The notes beneath the pieces are model-generated. The model was not told the origin of the DNA, made no database searches, and was given only the letters and a program-made list of their open reading frames with translations. DNA of 64,000 nucleotides, taken from NCBI RefSeq assembly GCF_947490415.1, contig NZ_CANLGX010000002.1:1-64000 (forward strand), written 5' to 3'. The stretch is from an uncultured Eudoraea sp. Lineage in GTDB: Bacteria; Bacteroidota; Bacteroidia; Flavobacteriales; Flavobacteriaceae. Positions 479-61,679 of this stretch are shown here, piece by piece (position 1 is the first letter of the stretch; every line of letters starts with the position of its first letter). The translations under genes and the position numbers were made by a program.

Positions 479-522
479 ATGACTAAGGTCATAAATAACC
501 AATACCGATTCGTTTAACTTAG
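479..522 (+). promoter_or_regulatory. Crp/Fnr-type operator plus -7 box, Lon-like protease
   Basis: Operator ATGAC-TAAG-GTCAT at 479-492 has perfect 5-base arms. The -7 box TAACTTAG begins at 515, exactly 36 bases after the operator start. The start codon at 551 lies about 65 bp from the operator centre. The same geometry is repeated before many stress genes further on, so this gene is inferred to belong to that regulon although it lies 31 kb away. Confidence 0.8.
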
Positions 523-550
523 ATAAGTAATTCCAAAACTACTATACTAC

Positions 551-2941
551 ATGCGACTAGAAGTAAAACCTGAGGCTTTAAGACGAGTATTGGACCCATC
601 GACCATCAATTGGAAAAAACTAAAACAAAAACGTACTTCAAGACCTTTAATAGGACAAGAAAGAGCACTAAAAGCATTGGAATTTGGAATAGGCAATAAA
701 AGTGGAGGCTTTAATATCTATGTTTCCGGATATCCTGGAAGTGGTAAACTTAAAGCGGTAAATCACTATCTGGAAGAAAAAGCACAATTTGAGACCTCAC
801 CAGGGGATTGGTGTTATGTAAATAATTTTAAGGACTCCTACTATCCAAAAAAACTCAATCTCCCTAAAGGCGGGGCTCAAATTTTCAAAGCGGAAATAAA
901 TAACCTCATTGAAGAAGCACAAAAAGTTTTATTAAACGCCTTTGATAGTAAGGAGTATGCGGAAAAACGGCAAGATATAATAGACGCCTTTAAGAATGAA
1001 GAGAATGAGCTGTTTAAGGACCTTAACAAAAAGGCTCTTGCAAATAGATTCATGATAAGACGGACCCCTATAGAAATTCTGGTAATTCCTACAGATGAGA
1101 GCGGTCACCCTTTAAGTGATAAGAAATTTAATCAGCTCAATAAAAAAACACAAGATGAGTTGTTGGAAAAACAGGACAGATTTAAGGAGGAGTTGCTATC
1201 ATTGCTTCGAAAAAACAGGGACCTGGAACGGGAAAGTAGGCGCAATTTAGGGGAATTAGATAAGAATGTTGCACTTTATGCCATAGACTCACTTCTCCAT
1301 GAATTACTGGAGAAATACAATGCCTATAATGATGTCATAACTTATCTGGAAAATGTAAGGAACGATATTATAGAAAATTTACCTCTTTACCTGGATGCTT
1401 CATCAACTCAGGATACTTTCGACCTAAAGATGGATCCAAGATTCATTAAATACCAGGTAAATGTTATCACAGATAATACAAAACTTAAGGGCGCCCCTAT
1501 AATAATGGAACTCAATCCCACCTATAATAACCTGTTCGGCAAAGTAGAACATGAATCGTATATGGGCAACCTTTTGACGAATTTTACATTAATAAGGGGA
1601 GGTTCTTTACATCGCGCTAACGGGGGCTACCTAATTGTACCGCTCAAGGAACTGCTTTTGAACTATTTTTCATGGGATAGCTTGAAAAGAGCTTTGAACA
1701 ATAATGAGATAGTGATAGAGGATGCAGGAGAACGCTTTGGTTTTCAAAATACCAAAAGCCTGAAACCTGATCCAATTCCACTTGATGTGCAAATTATATT
1801 GATTGGGTCACCAAAATGGTACTATTTATTGTACGAATTGGATGAAGATTTTAAGGAGCTCTTTAAAGTTAAGGCGGAGTTCGATACAACTATGGAATAT
1901 AATGCGGCTAATATTAAGGAATTCGCTTTGGTTACCTACAAGATTCAAAGAGAGAATAAGTTACTGCCGATAAGTGATAGCGCCTTAGCCTTTCTCATTG
2001 AGCAGGCATCAAGAATTGCACAGGACCGTAGTAAAATTTCAATCAAGTTCGGGGAGATAAAAGACCTGATGCACGAAGCGAATCATTACGCCCAGATAGG
2101 GAACGAATCAACCATAAGTGAAGAGCAAATCAATAAAGCTATTGATGCCCGGTATTATCGCTCTAATCTCATTCAGGAAAAAATAAATGAAATGATTCAT
2201 AAAAAAACGCTGATGATAGCCCTTACAGGGTCTGAAATAGGTCAAATTAACGGGATTTCCGTAATTGACCTGGGAGATATTGTATTTGGAAGACCCAATA
2301 AAATAACAGCCAGTGTAGCCTCGGGCAAATCAGGGTTGGTAGATATTGAGAGAGAAGCCAAATTAGGCGGCCCTATTCATACAAAGGGGGTACTTATTTT
2401 ACAGGGTTTTCTAAGGGAAATGTATGCACAGAATAAACCTATGAGCCTTTTTGGCAGTCTTGTCTTCGAGCAAAGTTATTCTGAAATTGAGGGTGATAGC
2501 GCCTCTAGTGCAGAGTTGTATGCGATTTTATCAAGTCTCTCTCAGATACCTATAAAGCAGGGTATTGCTGTTACTGGATCTATAAATCAGAAAGGAGAAC
2601 TGCAAGCCGTTGGCGCCATAAACCAAAAAATTGAGGGTTTCTATGAGGTTTGCAGGCAAGCCGGATTTGATGGCGAACAAGGGGTACTCATTCCCAAAAA
2701 TAATCTTGGGAATTTAATGCTAAAGAAAGAGATTCTGAGCAGTGTCAAAGAGGGCAAATTTCATATTTGGGCAATAAGTTCTATCGATCAGGGAATCGAA
2801 ATTCTTATGGGTCTACGGGCAGGTAAACGACTTAAAGACGGGTCATTTTCAAAAGAGTCCTTACATTACCTGGTAGACCGGAGAATAACACAGCTCAATG
2901 AAAATATCCAAACAAATTCGGTGAGTGAGAGGAAGCGCTGA
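551..2941 (+). CDS. Lon-like ATP-dependent protease (LonB/YcbZ type)
   Basis: A 796-residue soluble AAA-type protease. The N-terminal half has a P-loop GYPGSGK at residues 60-66 (the residue after the lysine is Leu rather than the usual Thr/Ser). The C-terminal half is a Lon serine-lysine protease domain: Ser650 lies in GDSAS and Lys693 in INQK, a 43-residue spacing equal to that between Ser679 and Lys722 of E. coli Lon. It lacks the Lon N-terminal substrate domain and has an unrelated insertion, as in the YcbZ/AAA_32 branch. It likely degrades damaged proteins in the cytoplasm. A Crp/Fnr-type promoter at 479-522 suggests control with the stress regulon. ATG 551 fits that promoter. Confidence 0.85.
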   Translation: MRLEVKPEALRRVLDPSTINWKKLKQKRTSRPLIGQERALKALEFGIGNKSGGFNIYVSGYPGSGKLKAVNHYLEEKAQFETSPGDWCYVNNFKDSYYPKKLNLPKGGAQIFKAEINNLIEEAQKVLLNAFDSKEYAEKRQDIIDAFKNEENELFKDLNKKALANRFMIRRTPIEILVIPTDESGHPLSDKKFNQLNKKTQDELLEKQDRFKEELLSLLRKNRDLERESRRNLGELDKNVALYAIDSLLHELLEKYNAYNDVITYLENVRNDIIENLPLYLDASSTQDTFDLKMDPRFIKYQVNVITDNTKLKGAPIIMELNPTYNNLFGKVEHESYMGNLLTNFTLIRGGSLHRANGGYLIVPLKELLLNYFSWDSLKRALNNNEIVIEDAGERFGFQNTKSLKPDPIPLDVQIILIGSPKWYYLLYELDEDFKELFKVKAEFDTTMEYNAANIKEFALVTYKIQRENKLLPISDSALAFLIEQASRIAQDRSKISIKFGEIKDLMHEANHYAQIGNESTISEEQINKAIDARYYRSNLIQEKINEMIHKKTLMIALTGSEIGQINGISVIDLGDIVFGRPNKITASVASGKSGLVDIEREAKLGGPIHTKGVLILQGFLREMYAQNKPMSLFGSLVFEQSYSEIEGDSASSAELYAILSSLSQIPIKQGIAVTGSINQKGELQAVGAINQKIEGFYEVCRQAGFDGEQGVLIPKNNLGNLMLKKEILSSVKEGKFHIWAISSIDQGIEILMGLRAGKRLKDGSFSKESLHYLVDRRITQLNENIQTNSVSERKR

Positions 2942-2964
2942 TGCCGCGTTTATTTTAAGAACTT

Positions 2965-3016
2965 ATTGTATTCATTGAGTTCATAAATACAATATGAATA
3001 CTGCCGGTAATACCGG
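2965..3016. terminator. Hairpins between convergent genes
   Basis: Two inverted repeats lie between the protease and gltD, which converge: ATTGTATT (2965-2972) with AATACAAT (2986-2993), and CCGGTA (3004-3009) with TACCGG (3011-3016). Neither has a long T-run, so a bidirectional terminator is only probable. Confidence 0.45.
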
Positions 3017-3021
3017 GGAAA

Positions 3022-22260: not shown

Positions 22261-22283
22261 TTCTAAGGATATAAATTAACGCA

Positions 22284-36066: not shown

Positions 36067-36070
36067 CGAC

Positions 36071-38910: not shown

Positions 38911-38954
38911 ATGACTTAGGTCATTTTTAGTTGTTTTTCTTTTTTATAGATTCA
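38911..38954 (+). promoter_or_regulatory. Crp/Fnr-type operator plus -7 box, Usp gene
   Basis: Operator ATGAC-TTAG-GTCAT at 38911-38924 with perfect arms, and a -7 box TAGATTCA at 38947, 36 bases after the operator start. It is 35 bp from the divergent operator at 38876, so each direction has its own site. The Usp start at 38990 is 72 bp away. Confidence 0.8.
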
Positions 38955-38989: not shown

Positions 38990-39850
38990 ATGAAAACTAT
39001 ACTCTGTGCCACGGATTATTCAGATAATTCAATTTCAGCACTCAAGTTGGCCAATGTGTTTTGTAAAAAACTAAAAGCCGAGCTTCATGTTGTTCATGTA
39101 TTTGATATTTCAGCTACTTTTATTAGTACAGTCAGTTTGGCATATGCCCGCTTGGAAGAAGCAGCCTTTAATAATCACCGGGAAAAGCTGGATGCTTTTT
39201 GCTGGAAGCATTTAAATTTGAAAGATGCTGACAAGAGCCCTGTTATTTCTGTGGTTGAGAATAGTATTGAGTCAGATGGGATTATGGGAAAGGCTGAAGA
39301 AATAAAAGCGGATCTGATAGTAGTTGGGATGACCGGAAGTAATATTGTAAAAGACCTGATTATTGGCAGCACAGCGACTGCATTGATAGAAAAATCCTCT
39401 GTTCCTGTACTATCTGTTCCTAAAAATGCACGGATTACTGAAATAAATACCATTGTATACGCAACGGCCTTTGAGGAAGCAGATGTCCCGGCTATTGCAA
39501 AGATTACTGAGTTTGCATCTGCCTTCAATACCGAAATTAAATTAATTCATGTTTCAACCAAAAAAGAATATGCTGCCGAAGATCAAATGCTTTGGTTTAA
39601 GGAAATGCTTAAAGAAAAGGTTACGTATAAAAAGATCAGTTTTGAATTTAGATTATCAGATGATATTTTCAGTACCTTAAAAGACTATTTAAAAGAGGTA
39701 GATGCAGATATTCTTGTAATGCTGGAAAGGGAGGGTCATGCCTTAATTCCGAATCTTTGGCATTTTGATTTGGTAAAACGCATGAAATTGGAGCGACTTG
39801 TTCCATTGTTAAGCTACCAAAAAACAGTATTGGAAATTCATGATCATTGA
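38990..39850 (+). CDS. Universal stress protein, two Usp domains
   Basis: 286 residues from the ATG at 38990, which matches the family start MKTILCATDYSDNS; the longer frame from 38957 begins before it with non-family residues. The first Usp domain (about 1-145) keeps the ATP-binding motif G-x2-G-x9-GS (GMTGSNIVKDLIIGS). The second (about 150-286) lacks it. Such proteins help cells survive starvation, low oxygen or oxidative stress. It is one of four tandem-domain Usp genes in the window. Confidence 0.9.
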   Translation: MKTILCATDYSDNSISALKLANVFCKKLKAELHVVHVFDISATFISTVSLAYARLEEAAFNNHREKLDAFCWKHLNLKDADKSPVISVVENSIESDGIMGKAEEIKADLIVVGMTGSNIVKDLIIGSTATALIEKSSVPVLSVPKNARITEINTIVYATAFEEADVPAIAKITEFASAFNTEIKLIHVSTKKEYAAEDQMLWFKEMLKEKVTYKKISFEFRLSDDIFSTLKDYLKEVDADILVMLEREGHALIPNLWHFDLVKRMKLERLVPLLSYQKTVLEIHDH

Positions 39851-39947: not shown

Positions 39948-41120
39948 TCAAAACCTAAACAAGGCATTCATAGGGGTATTTTTAACAGGCATTTCCTCGG
40001 CCTCCAGAAAGTAGACATTTCCACCTTGGAGAAAAGTATATATGGCAGCCATATTTAATAAGGAGATATTTCGCATTTCTTTACGGGAATCAATAATTAA
40101 GCATCCTTTAGCACTGTTATAGGTGCCAAAAACATCTTCTTTTTGCTGCACAAAGAGGGTATCTATTTTTCCTTTGACAGCTGCCGAAAAAATTTCCGAG
40201 GGGCGAAAGGAAGTTTTAGAAGTATGAATTTTGGCGATAAACTTTGCCAGTTTTACACGCTTTGTATTTTCAAAATAATATTGAACGAGACCCCAGGATT
40301 CTTTGTGCAACTCATTCGTACCTTTAAATTCAGGATCACCACTTAGATGGGTATCCCATAAATTAGGGTGTGAATTTATTTTCTTGTAAATAGGATACAA
40401 TTCATCGGTACATGCCAAAATCAATGGAGCCTTTTTATTTGACAGCATTTCAGTAACACTTTGATTTATTTGTCTAAAGAAGCTAACCAGTTCTTTTTTT
40501 TGGTCTTCCTTGCCTTCTCCCTGGCCATGAAATGACCCGGCCGGATACATCATATGACCTGTTCTGTTTTGTAACATCTTTTGCTCAAAATCATATCCCA
40601 CAACTTCTTCTAATTGTTTGGGAATTATTTTATTAATTTGAAGTTCCCGGAAGTTATTTCTGGAACCCTTGTATAATTTCACATAGTCGCGGCTTAATTC
40701 CAGAAGATAGTAAATACCGTTGTTGTGAAACAAAGGAAGTAACGGGATTAAGTAAAAATGATCGGCAACATAGGTTTTTATATCAAAAGGGAAAGGTAAT
40801 TTATAGTACCTGAATCCGAGATCTTTATCTAAAAATATTGCCAGACCTTCTGAGGGATTTCTCCAGAGACTTAGATCGAAAATAAGATTCCGGATTGGTT
40901 CAAGATATGAATTTATTTTAGTTTCATGATACCCGTATTCAACCAATACTGCATGTACTTTTTTCAGACAAGATTTTAAATTAGATTGCCCTAAGTCTTC
41001 ATTCTGTTCTTTACCTTTTTTATACATTGGCAAGTAAATAGAAACGCAATGCTGATTCCTTATTGCAGCTAGCTGTTCAAAAGCTTTTTTTGTAAATGTG
41101 TGTGCTAAAAAATTAACCAT
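39948..41120 (-). CDS. eRF1-like protein (baeRF; Balon/AOC03_06830-type hibernation factor)
   Basis: 390 residues from the ATG at 41120 (a TTG at 41138 is less likely). It matches my memory of bacterial eRF1/Pelota-like proteins: CVSIYLPMYKKG near the start, NPSEGLAIFLD, HFYLIPLLPLF and YYLLELSRDYVKLYKG, then a loop FHGQGEGKEDQ where true release factors have GGQ, and a C-terminal L30e-like domain ending in a conserved GGNVYFLEAEEMP-like strand. Related proteins (Balon) bind idle ribosomes in cold or starved bacteria. It follows the M50 protease gene by 73 bases and likely shares its regulon promoter. The function is inferred from family resemblance. Confidence 0.72.
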   Translation of the reverse strand: MVNFLAHTFTKKAFEQLAAIRNQHCVSIYLPMYKKGKEQNEDLGQSNLKSCLKKVHAVLVEYGYHETKINSYLEPIRNLIFDLSLWRNPSEGLAIFLDKDLGFRYYKLPFPFDIKTYVADHFYLIPLLPLFHNNGIYYLLELSRDYVKLYKGSRNNFRELQINKIIPKQLEEVVGYDFEQKMLQNRTGHMMYPAGSFHGQGEGKEDQKKELVSFFRQINQSVTEMLSNKKAPLILACTDELYPIYKKINSHPNLWDTHLSGDPEFKGTNELHKESWGLVQYYFENTKRVKLAKFIAKIHTSKTSFRPSEIFSAAVKGKIDTLFVQQKEDVFGTYNSAKGCLIIDSRKEMRNISLLNMAAIYTFLQGGNVYFLEAEEMPVKNTPMNALFRF

Positions 41121-41193
41121 GACCCTAATTTTTCTCAATTTATTAAATCATGCTGAAGTACGAAATGACAAGGATCAGGGAAGTTGAGTTAAT

Positions 41194-42305: not shown

Positions 42306-42379
42306 TGAAATTATTCAGATACAGGATTTTTAACAATGACCATGGTCATTACTTACTTATTATTTGAATTGTAATTTTA
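42306..42379. promoter_or_regulatory. Shared divergent Crp/Fnr-type operator with two -7 boxes
   Basis: Operator ATGAC-CATG-GTCAT at 42336-42349 is a perfect palindrome, extended to 16 bp. On the plus strand the box TAATTTTA starts at 42372; on the minus strand TAATTTCA runs 42313-42306. Both boxes are exactly 36 bases from the operator start in their own direction, so one bound dimer could activate both the flavin reductase operon and the M50-Balon operon. Confidence 0.85.
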
Positions 42380-42406: not shown

Positions 42407-43018
42407 ATGGACACATTACAGCAAGATAATTATGTACTCCTGGACAATTTAACTTCAATCTGGGATCAAATTTTCACTGTAGCTCCTTTGGTCGTAATTG
42501 GGACAAAGGAAAAGCAAGGTTATGATCTAGCCCCAAAACATATGGCTATGCCCTTGGGTTTTGGCAATTATTTTGGATTTGTCTGTACGCCAAGGCACAA
42601 TACATTTAGCAATGTGTTGGCCACAGGTGAATTTACCGTGAGTTTTCCAAAACCCGATCAAATAATCACAACTTCGTTGAGTGCCAGTCCACGATTGGAT
42701 TGTATTTCAAAATCAGAAGGGATAGTTGAAGCGTTGCCTGTTTTAAAGGCCCCTTCAATGGATGCACCGATATTAGCTGACGCCTATTTTTATTTGGAGT
42801 GTGGGTTACATAAAATTATTGATGGCTTTGATGATTATAGTATTATAACTGGAAAAATTAAGTCGGCTTATGCCCATAGAAATTATATAAAAGCTTCGGA
42901 AATGGATGAGCAGGATCAAATTTCAAAAAACCCCTTACTTGTATATATTGCCCCGGGCAGGTTTGCTAAGATCACGGAAACAATTGCTTTCCCCTTTCCA
43001 AAAAATTTTAAGCGATGA
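42407..43018 (+). CDS. Flavin reductase-like domain protein
   Basis: 203 residues of the FMN-binding split-barrel flavin reductase family (HMAMPLGFGNYFGFVCT, TPRHNTFSNV and GEFTVSFP). It may reduce FMN with NAD(P)H or bind flavin for another enzyme. The stop overlaps the next start (ATGA), so it is coupled to the M20 peptidase. A partner monooxygenase was not seen. Confidence 0.85.
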   Translation: MDTLQQDNYVLLDNLTSIWDQIFTVAPLVVIGTKEKQGYDLAPKHMAMPLGFGNYFGFVCTPRHNTFSNVLATGEFTVSFPKPDQIITTSLSASPRLDCISKSEGIVEALPVLKAPSMDAPILADAYFYLECGLHKIIDGFDDYSIITGKIKSAYAHRNYIKASEMDEQDQISKNPLLVYIAPGRFAKITETIAFPFPKNFKR

Positions 43019-44190
43019 AAACCCCGGAGAAAATAGCGGGCCATACCAAGGAGTATCTTTTGACTAATAAAGAACAAATGATTCTCTTTTTAAAAGAATT
43101 GGTTAGTATTGAATCGCCCACGGACAAAATTAATTCCCAGCACCAAATATTGGCTTATCTAAGAGATAGATTTATTGCTATGGGTTATTTGGTAATTCAT
43201 ATGTCAGGCAAAAATACCGGCGGTTATTTGTATGCAAGACCCAAAAATAGAAAGAAAGGTTTACCCCTTCAGCTTTTGATAGGTCATTGCGATACTGTTT
43301 GGCCCTTAGGAACAATAAAAAATATGCCCCTAACTTACATTAGAGGTAAGATAAAAGGGCCTGGTGTTTATGATATGAAAGCTGGTATTACCCAGATGGT
43401 TTTTTCCCTAATGGCGATCAGGGAGATGAACATAACAGCAAAAGTGGAACCTGTAATATTCATAAATTCTGATGAAGAAACAGGAAGCAGAGAGTCTACT
43501 AATGCGCTTAAAAGATTGGCAAAACTTGCAAACCGGGCCTATGTTTTGGAACCCCCTTTAGGATTGAATGGAAAATTAAAAACAGCAAGAAAAGGATTAG
43601 GTCGCTTTACTATTACCGTTCGCGGCAAGGCAGCGCATGCCGGATTAGACCCTGCCAAAGGCGTGAGTGCCATAGTAGAATTATCCCAGCAAGTCCAGAG
43701 GCTTTACGCTATGAATGATCTGGATAGAGGGATCTCTGTAAATATAGGAATGATTGAAGGGGGTATCTCACCCAATGTGATTGCACCTTTAAGTAAAGCT
43801 GTTATTGATGTTAGAGTCCTTAAAGAAGCAGATGGGGATATGATTACAAAAAAAATAAAAGCCCTAAAGCCAATACATAAAGATGTTGTAATGGAAATAG
43901 AAGGGGGTATTGGCAGACCGCCTATGGAAAAAACTCCTCGTAACCAGCTTTTATGGGAAATGGCAAAGAAACAAGGACAACAATTGGGGCTGGATCTGGA
44001 AGAAGCAACTGCCGGGGGAGGTTCAGATGCCAATACAACAAGCCTTTATACTGCCACTCTCGATGGTCTTGGAACCCCCGGAGATGGAGCACACGCAGCG
44101 CACGAGTATATTTTACAGAACAAGCTTATTGAAAGGACATCCCTTTTAACGCTCTTGTTATTATTAGAACCTTTAAATGAAAAAACATGA
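43015..44190 (+). CDS. M20 family metallopeptidase (carboxypeptidase G2-like)
   Basis: 391 residues. The zinc site is complete: His91 in GHCDTVWPLGT, Asp120 in GVYDMK, the catalytic Glu154-Glu155 in NSDEETGS, and AAHAGLDP in the lid domain. The LEPPLGLNGKLKTARKG stretch is typical of the carboxypeptidase G2 branch that releases C-terminal glutamate from folates or peptides. No signal peptide, so cytoplasmic. Overlaps both neighbours by four bases. Substrate not known. Confidence 0.88.
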   Translation: MKTPEKIAGHTKEYLLTNKEQMILFLKELVSIESPTDKINSQHQILAYLRDRFIAMGYLVIHMSGKNTGGYLYARPKNRKKGLPLQLLIGHCDTVWPLGTIKNMPLTYIRGKIKGPGVYDMKAGITQMVFSLMAIREMNITAKVEPVIFINSDEETGSRESTNALKRLAKLANRAYVLEPPLGLNGKLKTARKGLGRFTITVRGKAAHAGLDPAKGVSAIVELSQQVQRLYAMNDLDRGISVNIGMIEGGISPNVIAPLSKAVIDVRVLKEADGDMITKKIKALKPIHKDVVMEIEGGIGRPPMEKTPRNQLLWEMAKKQGQQLGLDLEEATAGGGSDANTTSLYTATLDGLGTPGDGAHAAHEYILQNKLIERTSLLTLLLLLEPLNEKT

Positions 44191-45233
44191 ACCATCAATT
44201 CATTTATACATCACTAACTAGAATTTCCGATTTGGCTGAAATCGAATTCAATTTAGAAAAACTTGATAGGGCCCAATGGGCAACCGGCGATTATGTTGTG
44301 AGTAAGATTCTGGACCCGGGAAGTAACACACTAAATTTAGAGCTTACTACGGGCAGAATGCGGGGAGTAATTGGAGGAGAATCAATCGTAGGTGCATTGG
44401 GGGAGCGTTATGCAACTCTTGAAGCGACAGGGACATGGCGCAAAGTTAAAGCCGACCTTAAGATGCATGTTTTGACCGGAGCTGGTCTTATGGGAAAATT
44501 AACCTCAAAATCTATTTTTTTGCCAAATATGATGGAAGTAAATTATACAGGCCATGCATTCAGAAATGGTAAAAAACTTACCATGAACGATTTTGTGGAA
44601 TCAGGTGAGCCAATTCCATTTAATACACCCGTGATCCTATTTGTAGGGACTTCCATGTCTGCAGGTAAAACAACTTCTGCCAGAATAGTAGCCAATCTTT
44701 TTAAAGTTGCCGGATACAACGTAGTTGGTGCTAAGCTCACCGGTGCCGGACGTTATAAAGATATTCTGGCCATTAAGGACGTGGGCGCAAATGCGGTTAT
44801 GGATTTTGTGGATGTTGGACTGCCATCTTCAATTTGTCCGGTAGACATTTACAGGACAAAGTTAGATCAGCTATTGAGCAGAATTCAGCATCAAAATGCC
44901 GATGTAGCCATTATTGAGATAGGCGCATCGCCTTTGGAGCCCTATAATGGTGATCTGGCTATTAACGCTTTGAGAGACCATATAAAATGTATTGTTCTTT
45001 GTGCTTCGGATCCATACGCTGTATACGGATTAATGGCAGCGTTCGAAATTATTCCGGACATTGTGACCGGGATTACATCTAATACGTTGGCAGGAGTTAA
45101 TATGGTTAAAAAACTTTGTAATGTTAATGCTCTGAATTTGATTGATTCTTCAACTTCTGAGGAGTTAAAGGAAGTGCTGTCTGCAAAGACCGGTTTTGAT
45201 TTATCAGAAAATACAATGGCTTATAGTAATTAA
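44187..45233 (+). CDS. P-loop NTPase of uncertain function (DUF1611-like)
   Basis: 348 residues. An N-terminal beta-rich domain (1-140) is followed by a P-loop domain with Walker A GTSMSAGKTT at 154-163. Later IIEIGASPLEPYNGD and CIVLCASDPYAVYG resemble DUF1611 proteins, some of which work beside dipeptide epimerases or peptidases in handling glutamate-containing compounds. Coupled by overlap to the M20 peptidase, so the two are likely to act on one substrate. I cannot name the reaction. Confidence 0.6.
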   Translation: MNHQFIYTSLTRISDLAEIEFNLEKLDRAQWATGDYVVSKILDPGSNTLNLELTTGRMRGVIGGESIVGALGERYATLEATGTWRKVKADLKMHVLTGAGLMGKLTSKSIFLPNMMEVNYTGHAFRNGKKLTMNDFVESGEPIPFNTPVILFVGTSMSAGKTTSARIVANLFKVAGYNVVGAKLTGAGRYKDILAIKDVGANAVMDFVDVGLPSSICPVDIYRTKLDQLLSRIQHQNADVAIIEIGASPLEPYNGDLAINALRDHIKCIVLCASDPYAVYGLMAAFEIIPDIVTGITSNTLAGVNMVKKLCNVNALNLIDSSTSEELKEVLSAKTGFDLSENTMAYSN

Positions 45234-45242: not shown

Positions 45243-45286
45243 CTGACAAATATCATACTGTACTAATCACTTAGTTTTTATCTTAG
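45243..45286 (+). promoter_or_regulatory. Crp/Fnr-type operator plus -7 box, zinc-ribbon operon
   Basis: Operator CTGAC-AAAT-ATCAT at 45243-45256 and -7 box TATCTTAG at 45279, 36 bases after the operator start. It begins only 9 bases after the preceding gene's stop, and the zinc-ribbon start at 45313 is 63 bp from the operator centre. Confidence 0.75.
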
Positions 45287-45312: not shown

Positions 45313-45606
45313 ATGAAAGCTTCAGAAAAGAATATTTGTCAGAGTTGTGGAATGCCAATGAAAAATATGACAGATTTTGGGACCGATAGCGATGGAAGTA
45401 TAAATTCAGAGTATTGCCACTATTGTTATGAAGAGGGAGAGTTTACCGATAAGGGGATTAGCCTTGAAGAAAAAATGGCAAAGAATATGAATATTGCCAT
45501 TAAAATGGGAATGTCAGAAGTTGATGCAGCCAAATTGGCAAGTAGAACACTTCCTGCCCTTAGGCGCTGGCGGAAATCAAACAAAGCTAAACAAGTAGAA
45601 AAATAA
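45313..45606 (+). CDS. Small zinc-ribbon protein
   Basis: 97 residues. Cys9/Cys12 (CQSCGMPM) and Cys35/Cys38 (CHYC) form a four-cysteine zinc ribbon of the Zn_ribbon_2 type, followed by a helical tail. Often found as a short stand-alone protein of unknown role near transporters or stress genes. First gene of a plus-strand unit with the next two. Confidence 0.8.
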   Translation: MKASEKNICQSCGMPMKNMTDFGTDSDGSINSEYCHYCYEEGEFTDKGISLEEKMAKNMNIAIKMGMSEVDAAKLASRTLPALRRWRKSNKAKQVEK

Positions 45607-45622
45607 CACTGCGCAGATATCA

Positions 45623-46348
45623 ATGGAAACGGTTTCACTTAATGAACAGCGAAGAACACGCTTCACATTCCTTCAAATTCTGGAAGGAGTAGAGGGTATT
45701 CTTATTATTACTGCAGCCTACTTAACCTTGTTTTTTAAACCATTAAGGGACCGATGGGGTATGAATAGTAAGGAGGCAAGCGCTTCATTTCCGGGAGATC
45801 ATCTCGTGCCGCAACCACGCTCAGAGTTTGTTCATGCGATAGAAATAAATGCCCCGGCGAGTTTTGTATGGCCATGGGTTGCCCAACTAGGGCAGGGTAA
45901 GGGTGGTTTTTACAGTTATGAGGCATTAGAAAACATACTGGGTTTACACATCTATAATGCCGATCAAATCTTACCGGAATTTCAACAACCTAAAATAGGG
46001 GATTTAATACCCTTTGGCCCAAAGGATGCTTATCCACTTGTAATTTGTGAACATGGCAAAGCTATGGCGATTGAAAATTGGTACGATTTAAATAAAAATT
46101 CCGTCTACAATCAGGCATTAGAATCTCCTATGAATTATTTGCATCTCAGTTGGTTGTGGATGGTTGAACCAATTGATGAACATAGGTCAAAGTTTATCTC
46201 TAGAAATAGAGTAGATTTCAAACCTACCTTTAAAAACAGTTTGCTATTTGGGCCTTTGGGCGAACCTGTTGTATTTGCCATGGACAGGAAAATGTGTTAT
46301 GGGATAAAAAGAAGAGCGGAGAATTTATATAGGAATTCTTCACGATAG
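45623..46348 (+). CDS. SRPBCC-family protein
   Basis: 241 residues. A hydrophobic segment near residues 20-40 may anchor it. The START/SRPBCC lipid- or ligand-binding fold follows (EINAPASFVWPWVAQLGQGKGG, then ENILGLHIYNAD). It probably binds a hydrophobic small molecule. It lies 16 bases after the zinc-ribbon gene in the same unit. Specific ligand not known. Confidence 0.75.
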   Translation: METVSLNEQRRTRFTFLQILEGVEGILIITAAYLTLFFKPLRDRWGMNSKEASASFPGDHLVPQPRSEFVHAIEINAPASFVWPWVAQLGQGKGGFYSYEALENILGLHIYNADQILPEFQQPKIGDLIPFGPKDAYPLVICEHGKAMAIENWYDLNKNSVYNQALESPMNYLHLSWLWMVEPIDEHRSKFISRNRVDFKPTFKNSLLFGPLGEPVVFAMDRKMCYGIKRRAENLYRNSSR

Positions 46349-46395
46349 CCATTCTCTCTCTCAGGTTTTTTATAAACTCGGAATATGATAGGCTT

Positions 46396-47061
46396 ATGAA
46401 AATAGATATACTTCCGGTAGTTCCTAAACCTTCTGTATTGCTCTTGCCACTTGTAGGAATGGGTATATTTGTTGTTTTATATGTTTTGGCGGCCATTAAT
46501 TATCCCGGGGGTTCATGGATGGTATTGGATCAGGAAGGATTCAGTTTTTGGAACAACTACCTATGTGATTTATTGGACTTATATGCCATAAACGGGGATT
46601 TAAATCCTGCGCGGTTTTTTGCCAGGGGTTCACTGGCAGTGCTTTGTGTAAGTCTGATTTTATTGTGGTATTATTTACCAGGACTTTTTTCAAATAAAAG
46701 CACCAATCTCATTGTCATGTGGCTTGCAGGGATTCTGGCTTTAGCAATTACTATGTCTCTCACATCAGGAACTCATGATATTACAGTTCGTATCGCGGGT
46801 TTTTTTGGGGTAATTGCCTTTATCAGCTGTTTTGTTGAATTATACAAGGCGAAATATTTCTCACTTTTGATTTTGGGTATTATATGTCTGCTGATTTTCT
46901 TGGGAAACTATTATATATATGAAACCGGGGCTATGATAAGAAGCCTACCGGTTATCCAAAAAGTAACCTTTATCTGCTATATTCTGTGGTTTGCCTTTCT
47001 GGATATATCCTACTACAAATTTTTAAAACTTAAACAAGATAAAATTAAGGTAAACCATTAA
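46396..47061 (+). CDS. Multi-pass membrane protein of unknown function
   Basis: 221 residues with about six or seven hydrophobic segments spread over the length, a charged loop after the first (WNNYLCDLLDLYAINGD), and a Lys-rich C-terminus. It recalls DUF998-type proteins in layout but I cannot confirm the family. Third gene after the zinc-ribbon promoter, 47 bases behind the SRPBCC gene. The 249 bases after it hold no gene. Confidence 0.6.
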   Translation: MKIDILPVVPKPSVLLLPLVGMGIFVVLYVLAAINYPGGSWMVLDQEGFSFWNNYLCDLLDLYAINGDLNPARFFARGSLAVLCVSLILLWYYLPGLFSNKSTNLIVMWLAGILALAITMSLTSGTHDITVRIAGFFGVIAFISCFVELYKAKYFSLLILGIICLLIFLGNYYIYETGAMIRSLPVIQKVTFICYILWFAFLDISYYKFLKLKQDKIKVNH

Positions 47062-51570: not shown

Positions 51571-52203
51571 TTATAATTCAAGTTTTCGTATTTCCCATGT
51601 ATTCGTTGAAGATTTTACGGCCAAAGTGTTAACCGATAGAAATTTTGCACGAAGTTCAGGCAATTCATAACGTCTTACGGACATCGAAATTCCATCTCTC
51701 TTATTAATAAGTAGCATAATATCGCCGGCAGTATCCAGGAGAACTTCACTAAATTTATAATCATAGATATTCAATTGAAAATTGTTTTTTCCTCTAAAGT
51801 CTTTGGTGACAAGAATGCCAACGGCATATCCTTCATTGAATTCAGTTAGATTCAGATATTCGGGTTCAATTACTATTTTGCCCTCGGTATTTATAAAGCC
51901 ATAAGTAGGAATCTCCTCTTCTTCCATTATTTTTTTTATCATACATCTGCCATTTTTAAATTGAGGAAAACGGATTGAACTAACATCGTTTACTGAGGTA
52001 GCAGGTAAATTGTTCCAAACAAGATCGTCTCTAAATTCTATTGCTAATTGGCCTTCTTTATTAATAAACCCCCATTCATTACCTTTCCTTATTGCTGCTA
52101 ATCCTTCACTAAATGGCGCTATTTCATCAATGCCTGTAAGCCCCTGTGCAAAAAGGAAAAAGGGTAGTATGAACAAAGCGAAAAGCGGGAATATTTTTTT
52201 CAT
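51571..52203 (-). CDS. WG-repeat protein, secreted
   Basis: 210 residues. A signal peptide ends near LFAQG (residue 20). At least two WG repeats are visible (WGFINKEGQLAIEF and YGFINTEGKIVIEPEY). WG repeats form small beta units of unknown role, common in Bacteroidota envelopes. First gene of the operon with the SDR, FMN-binding and DUF5661 genes, under the promoter at 52236-52279. Confidence 0.82.
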   Translation of the reverse strand: MKKIFPLFALFILPFFLFAQGLTGIDEIAPFSEGLAAIRKGNEWGFINKEGQLAIEFRDDLVWNNLPATSVNDVSSIRFPQFKNGRCMIKKIMEEEEIPTYGFINTEGKIVIEPEYLNLTEFNEGYAVGILVTKDFRGKNNFQLNIYDYKFSEVLLDTAGDIMLLINKRDGISMSVRRYELPELRAKFLSVNTLAVKSSTNTWEIRKLEL

Positions 52204-52235: not shown

Positions 52236-52279
52236 CAAAATTACGCTGCCCATAGCTGGTATAAAATGACCTTCGTCAT
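52236..52279 (-). promoter_or_regulatory. Crp/Fnr-type operator plus -7 box, WG/SDR/FMN operon
   Basis: Operator ATGAC-CTTC-GTCAT at 52266-52279 with perfect arms. On the minus strand the -7 box is a perfect TAATTTTG at 52243-52236, 36 bases from the operator start. The start codon at 52203 is 69 bp from the operator centre. Confidence 0.83.
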
Positions 52280-52353: not shown

Positions 52354-52809
52354 TTAGAACATAATATTGGAATAAATCATACTCTTTAGGTCTTTTGGAA
52401 GGCCATCCCTAATATCTTCCATCTCGCCCAGGGAAATATATTTTCTCAAATAAATAAAGGTAGTATCTATATATTGCTCGGCCACTTCATCACTGTATTC
52501 AAAATCATTAACAGCTGAAGGACCGTCGTGTTTTCTTACCAGGTCTATAAATTCAGCCATATGCTTTATTTTCAACTTCTTTTTATTTCTAAGAGTCCAG
52601 CCGTTTACATAAACTGCTTTTAAGAACATGGGCAGTTGCGCAATTAATTGCAAAGATTCCTCGGTTGAAATTATATCGCGTAAGCTGTGAAGAATAGCAG
52701 ATAATATTCTACCTGCTTTATCTCTATTGGTGCCAAGATTCATTTCCTTGGTGTATTCTTTAAGGAAGGTATTCCCTTCTGTAGCATATTGATTAAAATT
52801 TAGTGCCAT
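52354..52809 (-). CDS. DUF2267 protein
   Basis: 151 residues from the ATG at 52809 (MALNFNQYATEGNTF is the family start; the longer frame to 52887 runs through the operator and is rejected). The domain is all helical with AGRILSAILHSLRD and LPMFLKAVYVNGW. DUF2267 proteins are often found in stress and cyanobacterial or hypoxia-linked loci; their function is not known. Own regulon-type promoter, weaker than the others. Confidence 0.85.
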   Translation of the reverse strand: MALNFNQYATEGNTFLKEYTKEMNLGTNRDKAGRILSAILHSLRDIISTEESLQLIAQLPMFLKAVYVNGWTLRNKKKLKIKHMAEFIDLVRKHDGPSAVNDFEYSDEVAEQYIDTTFIYLRKYISLGEMEDIRDGLPKDLKSMIYSNIMF

Positions 52810-52834: not shown

Positions 52835-52878
52835 TAAAGATGAGCAGTAGCAATGCCATTACAAATGATCTTGGTCAC
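52835..52878 (-). promoter_or_regulatory. Crp/Fnr-type operator plus -7 box, DUF2267 gene
   Basis: Operator ATGAT-CTTG-GTCAC at 52865-52878 is imperfect. The minus-strand -7 box CATCTTTA at 52842-52835 is also imperfect, but the 36-base offset is exact. The start codon at 52809 is 62 bp away. Confidence 0.55.
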
Positions 52879-52942: not shown

Positions 52943-52986
52943 CTGATTAATATCATAGTTATCATCTCTGATGCTCAGTAAATTTG
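52943..52986 (+). promoter_or_regulatory. Crp/Fnr-type operator plus -7 box, triple Usp operon
   Basis: Operator CTGAT-TAAT-ATCAT at 52943-52956 and a perfect -7 box TAAATTTG at 52979, 36 bases after the operator start. The operator is identical to that at 31341. The first Usp start at 53012 is 62 bp from the centre. Confidence 0.8.
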
Positions 52987-53011: not shown

Positions 53012-53863
53012 ATGAACATACTTCTTCCTACAGATTTTTCTAAAAATTCCGGGAACGCCATTAGTTATGCCATGGAGTTATTTAAAAATGAAAAATGTAA
53101 CTTTTTCTTCCTGCATACGTATACCCCCTCATTTTACCGGATGGATTATATGCTGGGGGGGCCTATGTTTAGTGCTATTCCCGATTCTGGCGTTGATATT
53201 TCACTGGCCGGTCTAGAAAAAACACTTAAAGATGTTAAGAAATCTTATAAAAATCCAAATCATAGCTATAATATCATTTCAGCCTTCAATACACTTACAG
53301 ATGAAATCAATGAAGTGACTATAGAGAAGGAAATTGATATGGTGGTGATGGGAACTCAAGGTGCAACCGGGGCTAAAGAGATATTTCTTGGGTCAAATAC
53401 GGTTTATGTTCTCCGAAAGGCTATTGCACCGGTTTTGGTAATACCGGAAAACTATACCTTCCAAAAAATTGAAAAAATATTGCTTCCATCAGACTATTTG
53501 ACAAATTATAAGGATAACGAATTGAGTACTGCTATAAAAATGGTCAAAATGAATAAAGCAAAACTTATTGTTTTACATGTAAAAGAGGAGTACGATCTGA
53601 CCGCCAGTCAGGAGGAAAATAAGATGGCGCTATATCGTCGTTTAGATGGTTTGTCAACGACCCTTACAGAATTAAAAGGTAGTTTAATGCCAAATGCAAT
53701 TTTAAATTATGTCCAGAAGAATGGGATTGATCTCCTTATGATGATGAATAGAAAACATTCATTTTTTGAACGAATTTTTGAAAAACAAAATGTAGATCAA
53801 ATAGGTTTTCATATAAAAATACCCTTCCTGGTCATTAGAGATACAGCCAAGGTGGTTAAATAA
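53012..53863 (+). CDS. Universal stress protein, two Usp domains
   Basis: 283 residues. The first Usp domain has the ATP-binding motif with Gly114, Gly117 and Gly127-Ser128 (GTQGATGAKEIFLGSNT). The second domain (about 150-283) is degenerate. First of three tandem Usp genes, 9 bases before the next. Confidence 0.9.
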   Translation: MNILLPTDFSKNSGNAISYAMELFKNEKCNFFFLHTYTPSFYRMDYMLGGPMFSAIPDSGVDISLAGLEKTLKDVKKSYKNPNHSYNIISAFNTLTDEINEVTIEKEIDMVVMGTQGATGAKEIFLGSNTVYVLRKAIAPVLVIPENYTFQKIEKILLPSDYLTNYKDNELSTAIKMVKMNKAKLIVLHVKEEYDLTASQEENKMALYRRLDGLSTTLTELKGSLMPNAILNYVQKNGIDLLMMMNRKHSFFERIFEKQNVDQIGFHIKIPFLVIRDTAKVVK

Positions 53864-53872
53864 CAGTTACAG

Positions 53873-54715
53873 ATGAAAAATGTTTTATTGCTTACCGATT
53901 TTTCAAATAATGCATGGAATGCGATTTTCGCAGCTCTGAAAATGCACGAACATATAGAATGTCATTTTTTGCTTTTAAATACGTATGAACCCAGTTTTGC
54001 AAATATTCTTGGAGACAAGAGTAAGGAAAGATTGGGGGTAATCTACGACTCTCTTGCAAAAAATTCTTCAATTGAACTTGACAAGATATTACAATATTTA
54101 GAAAAAAATCATGTAAATAAAAACCACACTTTTGAAAAACGTTCTGTATCCAATGATATGGTAAATGCGGTAAAGGAAATTTGTAATGAAAAAGATATTG
54201 ACCTAATTGTCATGGGAACTAAAGGGGCTACGGGAGCCAAAGAAATTTTTATGGGAAGCAATACAGTAGAGCTCATTAAAATGATAAACAGCTGCCCCAT
54301 ATTTGCCGTTCCAAGTAAACATGATTTTAAAGGCTTAAATAAGATTTTGTTTCCTACAGAGTATACAAGACCCTACACAAAATATGAACTGAAGCCGCTT
54401 ATAGAACTGGCAACAACTTGGAATTCAGAAATATTAATAGTTCACATAGCACAGGAATTTTCGTTAAATGATGAGCAACTTTCTAATAAAAAAGTTTTGA
54501 TCAAACGTTTGGGTAACGTTGAGCATTCCTTTCACAATATAGAGATTGAGGTGAGTGTGGCTGATTCAATTAGTAAGTTTGCGATAGAGAGCAGAGCAGA
54601 TATTATTGTTTTAATTAATTATGAGCATACTTTTATAGAGAAACTAACCCGTGAAGCTGTGGTAAAAAAAGTGGGCTTTCATACACAAATACCATTGCTG
54701 GTTCTGCCGCAATGA
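53873..54715 (+). CDS. Universal stress protein, two Usp domains
   Basis: 280 residues, similar in layout to the genes on both sides, so the three are likely products of tandem duplication. The motif GTKGATGAKEIFMGSNT is intact in the first domain; the second lacks it. Co-transcribed with the preceding Usp gene. Confidence 0.9.
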   Translation: MKNVLLLTDFSNNAWNAIFAALKMHEHIECHFLLLNTYEPSFANILGDKSKERLGVIYDSLAKNSSIELDKILQYLEKNHVNKNHTFEKRSVSNDMVNAVKEICNEKDIDLIVMGTKGATGAKEIFMGSNTVELIKMINSCPIFAVPSKHDFKGLNKILFPTEYTRPYTKYELKPLIELATTWNSEILIVHIAQEFSLNDEQLSNKKVLIKRLGNVEHSFHNIEIEVSVADSISKFAIESRADIIVLINYEHTFIEKLTREAVVKKVGFHTQIPLLVLPQ

Positions 54716-54766
54716 GCAGGGTAATTTAGTGTCAGCTACAATATGATCAAATAATAATATAGTATA

Positions 54767-55615
54767 ATGATTCGAATAGTTTTACCTACAGATTTTTCAA
54801 AAAACGCATGGCATGCAATAAAATATGCAACATTTCTTTTTGAACAATCACCTTGTACTTTCATTATAATTCATGCACACCAGGTTAGTCCATCGGGCTT
54901 AATAAGTGCAATAAACAAAGAACATGATACCAGACTTCATGAGATTACGGCCAAAGAATCTGAAAGAAAGCTTAATAAAATAGTAAATCATTTAAATAAA
55001 ATAAATAAGGTTGCAGAACACCAATTTGAAGGTGTACTGGTTGCCGATTCTTTATTAAATGCTATTGGTCGTGAAGTAATAGACAAAGATGCCGACTATA
55101 TTATTATGGGAACCCAGGGAGCTTCTGGTTTAGGTGAAATTTTTATGGGTAGTAATACAGTTAGTGTTATAAAGAATATTAACTTTTGTCCGGTTATTGC
55201 GGTTCCCAATTCTTATGATTTTAGCCCTTTTAATGAAATTTTATTTGCCACAAATTTTAAACACCTGTATCAACGTGTCGAATTACAGCCATTGCTGGAT
55301 CTTGCCAAACTTCGTAAGGCCAGAATTAATGTTATTCATATCAATGAGGAAAAGGAATTAAACGAGGAACAACTACAATTAAAGAAATTGCTGCACAATT
55401 TATTAGGAGAGAAGGACAGTGTTTTTGAAGAATTTGACTATCATCCGAACATTGCTTTAAAAATCAACGATCTGACTGAAAAGAAAAACGCAGGGTTGAT
55501 AGCAATGATAAATTCTCAGTATAGTTTTTTTAAAGGGTTAACGCACGAGCCAGTGGTCAAAAAAGTAGCGTTTAAAACAAAGATCCCCTTTTTGGTCCTT
55601 CCGGAAGTGGAGTAA
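54767..55615 (+). CDS. Universal stress protein, two Usp domains
   Basis: 282 residues. The motif reads GTQGASGLGEIFMGSNT, so ATP binding is probable in the first domain. The 51-base gap from the second Usp gene shows no operator, so it is read through from 52943. Followed by pta-ackA after about 150 bases. Confidence 0.9.
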   Translation: MIRIVLPTDFSKNAWHAIKYATFLFEQSPCTFIIIHAHQVSPSGLISAINKEHDTRLHEITAKESERKLNKIVNHLNKINKVAEHQFEGVLVADSLLNAIGREVIDKDADYIIMGTQGASGLGEIFMGSNTVSVIKNINFCPVIAVPNSYDFSPFNEILFATNFKHLYQRVELQPLLDLAKLRKARINVIHINEEKELNEEQLQLKKLLHNLLGEKDSVFEEFDYHPNIALKINDLTEKKNAGLIAMINSQYSFFKGLTHEPVVKKVAFKTKIPFLVLPEVE

Positions 55616-59094: not shown

Positions 59095-59138
59095 ATGATC
59101 TTAATCATTTCGTATAGAAAGTCTATGTCTTAACTTGA
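59095..59138 (+). promoter_or_regulatory. Crp/Fnr-type operator plus -7 box, YtxH operon
   Basis: Operator ATGAT-CTTA-ATCAT at 59095-59108, with arms extending to 8 bp (59092-59111), and -7 box TAACTTGA at 59131, 36 bases after the operator start. The start codon at 59173 is 71 bp from the operator centre. Confidence 0.78.
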
Positions 59139-59172: not shown

Positions 59173-59502
59173 ATGTCAGACAACAGTAGTAATGTTTTGT
59201 TAGCTCTTTTAACAGGGGCAGCAATAGGAGCAGGTATAGGAATTTTATATGCACCTGACGAAGGGATTAAAACCCGAAAAAAAATTAAGGATAAGGCACT
59301 TGAAACCAAGCACGATCTAACAGAACGAATTTCTCATGCCAAGGATGAACTCACCAAAGTAGCAGACGAGAAGAAAGAAGTTTTTGAACAAAAGTTAGAG
59401 GATACCATCTCTACAATGAGTTACAAAGCAGATGAAATTATTGTTCAATTAGAGCGTAAGCTTGAAGAGATCAGAAAGAAAAATGCACAATTACAGAAGT
59501 AG
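59173..59502 (+). CDS. YtxH-domain protein
   Basis: 109 residues. A Gly-rich membrane segment (LALLTGAAIGAGIGILYAPDEG, kept within the YtxH pattern) at about 8-30 is followed by a long charged helix to the end. Small proteins of this type are induced by stress in many bacteria; the function is not known. First of three coupled genes that look like a membrane module. Confidence 0.85.
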   Translation: MSDNSSNVLLALLTGAAIGAGIGILYAPDEGIKTRKKIKDKALETKHDLTERISHAKDELTKVADEKKEVFEQKLEDTISTMSYKADEIIVQLERKLEEIRKKNAQLQK

Positions 59503-59508
59503 GCTATT

Positions 59509-59859
59509 ATGGCTTTTGAAGGATTAAGACAAAATATTTCTGAATTAGACGAAAATGTCAGCTCCTATGTGGAGCATAGCATAGAATACGCCAAGCTTAA
59601 AAGTTTTAAGATATCCATGGTTTTGGTTACCTTTTTGGCCAAAGTGTTGTTGGTTGGTACAATAGTTATTTTGGCTTTGATATTTTTGAGCTTGGCGGCT
59701 TCTTTTGCCTTGGGTCACGCAATGGATAATACCATTTATGGATTCGCTATAATTGGGTTTTTATATCTGTTGTTTGCCATTATAGGTTATCTATTTCGCG
59801 ATAGGTTAAATAAACCTTTACTGCAATTGTTTTCTAAATACTTTTTTGAAGGACCATGA
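59509..59859 (+). CDS. Holin-X-like (phage holin superfamily) membrane protein
   Basis: 116 residues with two membrane helices (about 38-67 and 72-95) in the pattern of the putative actinobacterial Holin-X family, flanked by a helical N-terminus. There are no phage genes nearby, so it is a host envelope protein. The stop overlaps the next start. Confidence 0.72.
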   Translation: MAFEGLRQNISELDENVSSYVEHSIEYAKLKSFKISMVLVTFLAKVLLVGTIVILALIFLSLAASFALGHAMDNTIYGFAIIGFLYLLFAIIGYLFRDRLNKPLLQLFSKYFFEGP

Positions 59860-60077
59860 TAGGAAAATACAACTCGTTTAGGGAAATTGATGAAGATTTG
59901 AAAATCCTCGCTCTTGAAAGAGAGATCAACAAGGAGTATACGAAGTATAGTTTGCAAGAACTTAAAACGTATTTCTATCCCTTTAATTTAATTAGAAGTT
60001 TTGATGGTTTTGTTGCCAAAGTGATGATTCCCTTTATTTTAACTAGGGTTTTTAAGAAAAAAAGACTGTCAGAATAG
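59856..60077 (+). CDS. DUF6327 family protein
   Basis: 73 residues. Matches the short DUF6327 pattern (NSFREIDEDLKILALEREI near the start and a FYPFNLIRSFDGF stretch), with a C-terminal hydrophobic segment. Overlaps the Holin-X-like gene by four bases, so the three-gene module is coupled. Function not known. Confidence 0.75.
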   Translation: MIGKYNSFREIDEDLKILALEREINKEYTKYSLQELKTYFYPFNLIRSFDGFVAKVMIPFILTRVFKKKRLSE

Positions 60078-61007: not shown

Positions 61008-61037
61008 AAACGGTTTATGGAGTCTTTATTCTAAATT

Positions 61038-61116
61038 ATGGAAAAAACAATGCCCTCATTCAAGACCTTATACTACATGGACGATTAAAAGATCTTAGAA
61101 AAAGGGCATTTTTACT
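61038..61116. other. Inverted repeat between patatin and hsp20
   Basis: AATGCCCT (61049-61056) pairs with AGGGCATT (61103-61110) around a 46-base loop, followed by T's, so it may terminate the patatin transcript and, on the other strand, hsp20. A 16-codon frame (61038-61088) spans the 5' arm; nothing supports it as a gene. Confidence 0.4.
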
Positions 61117-61129
61117 AAAAAATGAAATT

Positions 61130-61600
61130 TTAACTAATTTCAATTACTTTTGGTTTTGGTTTTAGAGCCACTTCTTTTTTTGCTAGTTTAAAGCTTAGAA
61201 TTCCGTCACTGTATTTGGCTTTAATTTCCTCTTCTTTTACATTTTCTGGTAAAAGCAAGGATCTTTCAAATGCATTATAACTAAATTCTTTTCTGGTGTA
61301 ATCTTCATCCTTTTCTTCTTTACTAACCTCTTTTTTTGCAGAAATATTGAGGTATCCTTCATCAATGGTGATTTCAAAATCTTTCTTAGCGAAGCCAGGT
61401 GCTGCCAATTCAATTTCAAAGTGGTCTTCTTTTTCCATAATATTTAAAGCAGGTTCTCCGGATCTTGCATTCCAGAAACGATCGTTTACTAATCCACGAT
61501 TCCAAAATTTGTCGTCAAAGAAATTCTCCATGTCAAAAAAATCGGAAGTAATTAGGTTTCCAAAAGGTCTTGTCCTTTTTTTAAATTTAACTAGTGACAT
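61130..61600 (-). CDS. Small heat-shock protein, Hsp20/alpha-crystallin family
   Basis: 156 residues from the ATG at 61600 (MSLVKFKKR); the longer frame to 61636 lies in the leader. The alpha-crystallin domain spans about 45-140 with APGFAKKDFEITIDEG and the AKYSDGILSFKLAKK signature. It ends in a PKVIEIS extension that contains the I-x-I motif for oligomer contacts. It holds unfolding proteins in solution. The regulon-type promoter lies upstream. Confidence 0.93.
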   Translation of the reverse strand: MSLVKFKKRTRPFGNLITSDFFDMENFFDDKFWNRGLVNDRFWNARSGEPALNIMEKEDHFEIELAAPGFAKKDFEITIDEGYLNISAKKEVSKEEKDEDYTRKEFSYNAFERSLLLPENVKEEEIKAKYSDGILSFKLAKKEVALKPKPKVIEIS

Positions 61601-61635
61601 AATATTAGATTTTAGGTTAAACATTAATTGAGACA

Positions 61636-61679
61636 CGAATGTAAAGAGTACATCTAATTTTCGGAATGATATTGATCAG
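61636..61679 (-). promoter_or_regulatory. Crp/Fnr-type operator plus -7 box, hsp20
   Basis: Read on the minus strand: operator CTGAT-CAAT-ATCAT (61679-61666) and -7 box TACATTCG (61643-61636), 36 bases from operator start to box start. The operator differs from those at 31341 and 52943 by one spacer base. The start codon at 61600 is 72 bp from the centre. Confidence 0.75.

Follow-up and report, generated by a model that had tools for sequence, protein, structure and literature searches.

The 64,000-nucleotide window analyzed here (assembly GCF_947490415.1, contig NZ_CANLGX010000002.1, positions 1 to 64,000) comes from an uncultured Eudoraea sp. of the family Flavobacteriaceae. Its intergenic spaces hold a short dyad, TGAY-N4-RTCA, at a fixed distance from a promoter box of the TAnnTTTG type. 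A first-pass annotation had listed twelve such dyads, each of which is present where it was placed, under the formula [A/C]TGA[C/T]-N4-[A/G]TCA[T/G]. This formula holds for the listed sites except 52865, which reads GTGAC-N4-ATCAT on the promoter strand, and a 13th dyad at 41165, upstream of the baeRF gene 39948..41120 (minus strand, CTGATCCTTGTCAT), had been overlooked. Boxes were scored on six letters, and the offset was counted from dyad start to box start (the 33 bp in the title of the annotation is the centre-to-centre distance). The sites, with their boxes and the units behind them, are the following.

479..492, plus strand: operator dyad ATGACTAAGGTCAT; box TAACTTAG (5/6) at 515-522; before 551..2941 (LonB/LonC-like protease)
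31341..31354, plus strand: operator dyad CTGATTAATATCAT; box TAAATTTG (6/6) at 31377-31384; no open reading frame (ORF) of at least 31 amino acids until 31688
34430..34443, plus strand: operator dyad ATGACTTATATCAT; box TATATTTG (6/6) at 34466-34473; before 34505..37069 (MlaE permease, ABC ATPase, MlaD)
38876..38889, minus strand: operator dyad ATGACAATTGTCAT; box TAATTTTA (5/6) at 38846-38853; before 38456..38821 (no Pfam match)
38911..38924, plus strand: operator dyad ATGACTTAGGTCAT; box TAGATTCA (4/6) at 38947-38954; before 38990..39850 (universal stress protein, USP)
41165..41178, minus strand: operator dyad CTGATCCTTGTCAT; box TAAATTGA (4/6) at 41135-41142; before 39948..41120 (baeRF family)
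42336..42349, both strands: bidirectional operator dyad ATGACCATGGTCAT
42336, plus side: box TAATTTTA (5/6) at 42372-42379; before 42407..45233 (flavin reductase, M20 peptidase, no match)
42336, minus side: box TAATTTCA (4/6) at 42306-42313; before the M50-CBS protease at 41194
45243..45256, plus strand: operator dyad CTGACAAATATCAT; box TATCTTAG (5/6) at 45279-45286; before 45313..47061 (zinc ribbon protein first)
52266..52279, minus strand: operator dyad ATGACGAAGGTCAT; box TAATTTTG (6/6) at 52236-52243; before 51571..52203 (WG repeat protein) and followers
52865..52878, minus strand: operator dyad GTGACCAAGATCAT; box CATCTTTA (4/6) at 52835-52842; before 52354..52809 (DUF2267)
52943..52956, plus strand: operator dyad CTGATTAATATCAT; box TAAATTTG (6/6) at 52979-52986; before the three-gene USP operon 53012..55615
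59095..59108, plus strand: operator dyad ATGATCTTAATCAT; box TAACTTGA (4/6) at 59131-59138; before 59173..60077 (YtxH first)
61666..61679, minus strand: operator dyad CTGATCAATATCAT; box TACATTCG (5/6) at 61636-61643; before 61130..61600 (Hsp20)

All 13 dyads of the window fall within its 7,588 bp of intergenic DNA and none within the ca. 56.4 kb of coding DNA, while simulated intergenic DNA (first-order Markov, 1,000 runs) gave a mean of 0.40 and a maximum of 4. At an offset of exactly 36, a box with at least five of the six letters was found in 9 of 26 orientations, against a mean of 0.29 over 129 other offsets, and a box with at least four letters in 16 of 26, against a mean of 2.05; the 13 orientations first reported lie between these counts. 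With orientations taken as independent, and with 5/6 boxes arising at a background rate of 1.2% in the intergenic DNA of the window, the binomial probability is 1.5e-11, which bears out the earlier view that so rigid a spacing is very unlikely by chance. The 22-base spacers between dyad and box vary from site to site. Start codons had been placed ca. 61 to 73 bp from the dyad centre; most units conform, but not 41165 (51-52), the minus side of 42336 (40 or 51, depending on the start codon chosen) or 31341, where no ORF of at least 31 amino acids follows for ca. 340 bp.

The same analysis was applied to 22 stretches outside the window, 20 on contig C1 around dyads there and two around regulator genes. 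Since the stretches were picked for dyads or regulator genes, site counts are inflated by selection, while the box test is unaffected; coding and intergenic DNA were assigned by a simple longest-ORF rule, under which some "coding" sites are probably intergenic. These stretches provided 56 further dyads, 40 of them intergenic; of the 80 orientations of the intergenic dyads, 35 had a box at exactly 36 (other offsets had a mean of 0.95 and a maximum of 6). The annotation had named an equal rate in coding or shuffled DNA as one outcome that would speak against it. The pair was instead far rarer at coding sites (2 of 32 orientations) and also at control palindromes: 71 of these, applied to the same DNA, gave a mean of 3.2 intergenic sites versus 59 for the real dyad, and 20 boxes in 456 orientations versus 47 in 118, with 17 of the 20 due to a single control, YGAT-N4-ATCR, that overlaps real sites. 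Over the whole 3.89-Mb genome we counted 153 dyads, compared with 29 for the reversed pattern. In the 0.29 Mb examined, a box of 5/6 or 6/6 accompanied 50 oriented sites, and the regulon is much larger than the window shows; if 35 per 56 sites is typical, extrapolation gives roughly 100 such promoters in the genome.

The class II position of CRP and FNR is -41.5, and in E. coli class II CRP promoters the activator sits there over the upstream element. In F. psychrophilum, the passages of PMC9723704 that report 5'-end mapping place TAnnTTTG at -12 to -5, with a median leader of 24. Given that the dyad centre lies 29.5 bases upstream of the box, the offset of 36 computes to -41.5 when transcript starts are taken from F. 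psychrophilum, in line with the class II position (ca. -41.5) cited in the annotation, and start codons follow ca. 20 to 32 bases past the computed start site, close to the median leader described in those passages. A 70-base logo of 44 sites, chosen solely by a gene start 48 to 95 bp downstream, had as its strong columns the dyad and TAnnTTTR at exactly 36, together with two T-rich columns right after the dyad; the box reached at least 5/6 in 31 sites and at least 4/6 in 39, and, whichever offset between 6 and 21 was taken for the -33 place, no more than one of the 44 had TTTG there. The two half-sites were not equivalent. Among the own-genome sites with a box, the promoter-proximal half was ATGAY in 48 of 50 and the distal half began with C in 26 and with A in 21. 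The proximal T and the T-rich bases behind it probably replace the -33 element. The arrangement resembles E. coli class II CRP promoters in that the dyad is centred at -41.5, where the upstream promoter element would otherwise lie, and differs from them in its sigma-A promoter (the TAnnTTTG of Bacteroidota) and in showing no sign of cAMP as signal.

Conservation was assessed in the best 80 of 282 loci matching the FNR-like protein described below, whose sequences are related and not independent; the six nearest relatives in this set are 92 to 96% identical and mostly Eudoraea. These loci carry 213 dyads in 132 kb of intergenic DNA compared with 24 in 1.36 Mb of coding DNA, and 257 of the 426 intergenic orientations have their box at 36 (elsewhere the mean was 4.8 and the maximum 42). 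The box was also at 36 in 28 of 48 "coding" orientations (mean of 0.47 elsewhere), probably because the longest-ORF rule mislabels some intergenic sites. The asymmetry of the half-sites recurs, with a proximal A in 220 of 273 sites and a distal C in 197. A dyad lies within 110 bp upstream of 58 of the 77 fnr genes called in these loci; on the ccoI side, the box at 36 scores 4/6 or better in all 58 and 5/6 or better in 51, and on the fnr side it scores 5/6 or better in 44. Together, these results describe a real, well-conserved class II Crp/Fnr regulon.

Gene families were assigned by Pfam matches for the units headed by a dyad. Stress and quality control are represented by USPs, two Hsp20 genes, the LonB/LonC-like protease, FtsH, an HtrA-type protease, HPF, baeRF and M50-CBS. 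Other units encode the MlaE operon, flavin reductase, thioredoxin, pyruvate:ferredoxin oxidoreductase (PFOR), ferredoxin, alcohol dehydrogenase, PfkB and BON, as well as a LigD primase with an erythromycin-esterase family protein, archease with RtcB, and PAS kinases. A hemN-type gene and ccoI carry the dyad both in this genome and in that of Croceitalea dokdonensis (G269). Twelve of the 13 USP genes above the cut-off are in dyad-headed units, the exception being C1:523593; a sub-threshold protein of 739 amino acids is not in such a unit. Of the twelve, C4:487812 and C4:481837 depend on a lone or heading dyad whose box scores 4/6, and C6:170076 comes second in its unit, after a hemN-like radical-SAM gene whose box scores 6/6. 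The pta (55747) and ackA (57872) genes, downstream of the USP operon 53012..55615 across a 131-bp gap, have no dyad of their own and are weak members. Both baeRF genes of the genome are in dyad-headed units. The protein encoded at 39948-41120 had 8rd8 (with 8rdv and 8rdw), entries that we take to be Balon, as its sole PDB match up to an E value of 1. This match is distant (E 0.027), so that a role of baeRF in hibernation is a guess, and "Balon-like" was withdrawn as a firm label.

Five Crp/Fnr proteins are encoded in the genome, none within the window, and two of them, in dyad-bearing loci, share a TExxIR reading helix, which supports the earlier suggestion of a Crp/Fnr-type activator encoded elsewhere. 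Both candidates (P0001 and P0002) scored above the Pfam cut-offs for PF00027 and PF13545. One is an FNR-like protein (G000:C6:144075-144767) whose gene stands between usp and ccoI; one dyad precedes usp and a second lies between fnr and ccoI. The ccoI product is a P-type ATPase with a metal-binding N-terminus (Pfam), followed by a ccoN-ccoO fusion (COX1 and FixO). The other is a receiver-CRP fusion (PF00072, PF00027 and PF13545), the last gene of an operon on G000:C4 with the order HPF - USP - PAS kinase - REC-CRP; the dyad that heads this operon has a box scoring 4/6. The motif TE[ST]xIR recurs in 18 of 20 FNR matches from 20 genomes of the class, the exceptions being VESTIR (G068) and KETATR (G058). 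As a separate observation, a stand-alone receiver of 127 amino acids (L275 2464-2847 minus, on G000:C1) adjoins the second baeRF gene and is 49.6% identical to the receiver of the fusion over 125 residues.

We consider it quite probable that the dyad [A/C]TGAY-N4-RTCAT is a class II Crp/Fnr operator with the FNR-like protein as its main reader at low oxygen, the receiver-CRP fusion as a second reader and a survival programme as its output. A Crp/Fnr activator bound at -41.5, over the missing -33 element, would touch RNA polymerase in the class II manner. The FNR-like protein would be active at low oxygen, and the fusion would read the same operator and bring in a phosphorylation input. The expected output is cbb3 respiration, heme synthesis and metabolism based on ferredoxin, together with universal stress proteins, ribosome hibernation and quality control of proteins.

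Several observations weigh against this proposal. Some members are weak: the boxes of the HPF and RtcB units are GATxTTTA (4/6), PfkB has a 4/6 box that stands 137 bp from the called start of the gene, and several units have a box of only 4/6 or a longer leader. At the fnr-ccoI dyad of this genome, the box at 36 scores 4/6 on the ccoI side and 1/6 on the fnr side, which leaves class II self-activation of fnr unsupported here. The sensor itself departs from FNR proper. The cluster ligands of E. coli FNR are C20, C23, C29 and C122, and alignment to the A. fischeri protein showed the places of C20, C23 and C122 kept, that is, three of the four cysteines, with Asn at that of C29. Furthermore, dyad-box pairs occur in G165, a genome with no FNR ortholog, so that the FNR-like protein is not the sole possible reader, and a dyad excess was found in two genomes with no FNR match at 1e-20 (101 versus 15 in G040 and 98 versus 14 in G060). 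Attribution through class-wide dyad counts against FNR presence in 247 genomes was set aside, given that the loose pattern varies and that the FNR query also matches the receiver-CRP.

The change at the third cysteine is not peculiar to this genome. C-x2-C-x5-N was present in all 75 close relatives whose motif was found (four further rows were other ORFs), and in five less closely related members of the family this place is taken by Asn or Ser. Outside the family, within the class Bacteroidia, 10 of 15 FNR-like proteins have C-x2-C-x8-C instead of C-x2-C-x5-C. Of these five and 15 proteins together with G021, a member of the same order, 20 of 21 kept the fourth cysteine; in G021 both it and the motif were absent. 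These patterns indicate that the third ligand has moved or gone. Three cysteines can suffice, as in B. subtilis Fnr, which uses three Cys and an Asp.

An alternative that we regard as unlikely is that the stress part is activated mainly by the receiver-CRP, in a two-component system with the PAS kinase, and that FNR runs only the cbb3 genes. The fusion has the same TExxIR helix, and its own dyad-headed operon contains HPF and USP. In G165, which has the fusion (best FNR match at E 9.4e-21), 50 of the 51 sites were examined and 11 had the box at 36, seven of these intergenic; the genes behind the boxed sites, named by eye, include usp and hemN-, ccoS- and CBS-like genes. However, G165 also encodes a VETVIR protein (L255), and this second E..IR protein weakens any attribution to the receiver-CRP from that genome alone. 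Among 26 fnr-bearing genomes searched from the 80 loci, seven gave no full-length receiver-CRP match (in G266, G267 and G270, 50 of 52 to 58 candidates were scored), yet they keep the rule, usp promoters included, with a box at 36 for 21 of 21 dyads in their fnr loci. The Croceitalea genome G269 (locus L109), one of these seven, had the box at 36 in 13 of 50 sites examined, of 63 in the genome. There, FNR is the only E..IR carrier among three HTH_Crp_2 proteins, which argues that FNR is sufficient where it is alone. It is likely that the receiver-CRP shares the operator with FNR, and two regulators rather than one may read it. A second FNR-like protein with a degenerate reading helix, SPEYIIN, lies near fnr in G269 (L252, G269:C12:116808-117023).

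Other readings of the dyad are much less probable than either arrangement of FNR and the fusion. The TGA-N6-TCA core is common to the Crp/Fnr superfamily, and on these grounds one of the three remaining Crp-type proteins (C2:557218, C2:548498 and C2:170784), perhaps cAMP- or carbon-responsive, could bind it. Their helices (REVVSR, RAVVSR and RVVVSR, two of them without Glu) differ from TExxIR, two of their 3-kb loci are free of dyads, the third has only GTGACTAAAGTCAC across the gene's own stop codon, and the targets of the regulon are low-oxygen and stress genes; we regard this as very improbable. Equally improbable in our view is a repressor site: the dyad does overlie the -33 region, where a bound protein could exclude RNA polymerase, but repression tolerates variable operator positions, and an offset rigid to a single base together with loss of the -33 TTTG fits activation. 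Finally, we see practically no chance that the pattern is accidental, a by-product of composition or a copied repeat. Accident and composition were rejected on the enrichment in the window, the avoidance of coding DNA, the offset rule in independent DNA (35 of 80), the genome count (153 versus 29) and the control palindromes, and a repeat was rejected on the differing spacers.

We compared this system, with FNR and the fusion as its proposed readers, with regulons already known. FNR and Anr of Proteobacteria are alike in belonging to the Crp/Fnr superfamily, in the TGA-N6-TCA core, in the class II position and in controlling the cbb3 oxidase and low-oxygen metabolism; control of usp is also known in Anr regulons. 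The half-site of FNR proper is TTGAT and its reading helix is E-x-x-S-R. Here, the half-site is [A/C]TGAY, and the helix is TExxIR rather than VETISR, with E and R kept and Ile in the place of Ser. Further differences are the absent third N-terminal Cys, the Bacteroidota -7 box, a wider stress and dormancy set, and a possible second, receiver-fused reader. The response of F. psychrophilum to oxygen limitation, in which passages of PMC9723704 report cbb3 oxidase and heme synthesis genes as upregulated, shares these genes and the TAnnTTTG box at -12 to -5. The main text of that article contains no word beginning with Crp, Fnr or TGA, and its passages on this response name no operator or regulator. 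Among the papers listed from an open-licence library, no title or abstract opening described a Crp/Fnr regulon with this operator in flavobacteria or Bacteroidetes; Flavobacteriales homologues are predicted to be carbon-sensing and MalR-like in passages of PMC8510549.

In content, there is a marked likeness to the mycobacterial DosR regulon, for which the families of several Rv genes in the published list are our assumption. DosR is a NarL-type regulator, whereas both candidates here are Crp/Fnr-type by Pfam and the operator is another one. USP, Hsp20, PfkB, ferredoxin, CBS and eRF1-related families were all found here by Pfam, the eRF1-related proteins being baeRF. As described in passages of PMC4082495 and PMC10901736, the likeness extends to USP, Hsp20, PfkB, ferredoxin, M50-CBS, CBS, an eRF1-related protein and the presence of a kinase and a regulator inside the regulon. 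Passages of PMC10901736 also describe Balon, an eRF1-related hibernation factor, as encoded beside Hsp20, RaiA and RtcB genes, and Rv2629 as hypoxia-induced. A tentative extension is that Flavobacteriaceae may have an equivalent of the DosR dormancy regulon, governed by one class II operator and two exchangeable readers, a three-cysteine iron-sulphur FNR variant and a phosphorylation-driven receiver-CRP. Oxygen loss and a kinase signal would then converge on the same promoters, and a lineage could lose either reader and still keep the regulon.

Bacteroidota are abundant in the sea, and little low-oxygen control has been described for them in the literature searched. Given the rigid rule, the regulon can be read from sequence in many genomes, and HPF, baeRF, universal stress proteins and cbb3 respiration are linked by a single operator. 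The comparison suggests that DosR-like gene content assembles under unrelated regulators, and a three-cysteine FNR with possible site-sharing by two regulators offers a testable case.

Three minor observations concern genes and DNA in or beside these units. A diverged family of small proteins (132 to 149 amino acids, 19 to 34% identity in the longer alignments) occurs in or beside regulon units, and none of its five members scored above a Pfam cut-off: L027 5082-5501, L027 4465-4908, L029 11830-12228, L030 7260-7661 and L268 2077-2526. In the window, the stretch 18955-24811, which is without a dyad, has two sulfatases close to an AraC-type regulator (Pfam). At 31341-31700, the perfect TAAATTTG box at 36 is followed by ca. 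340 bp without an ORF of at least 31 amino acids, which could possibly represent a small RNA or a long leader.

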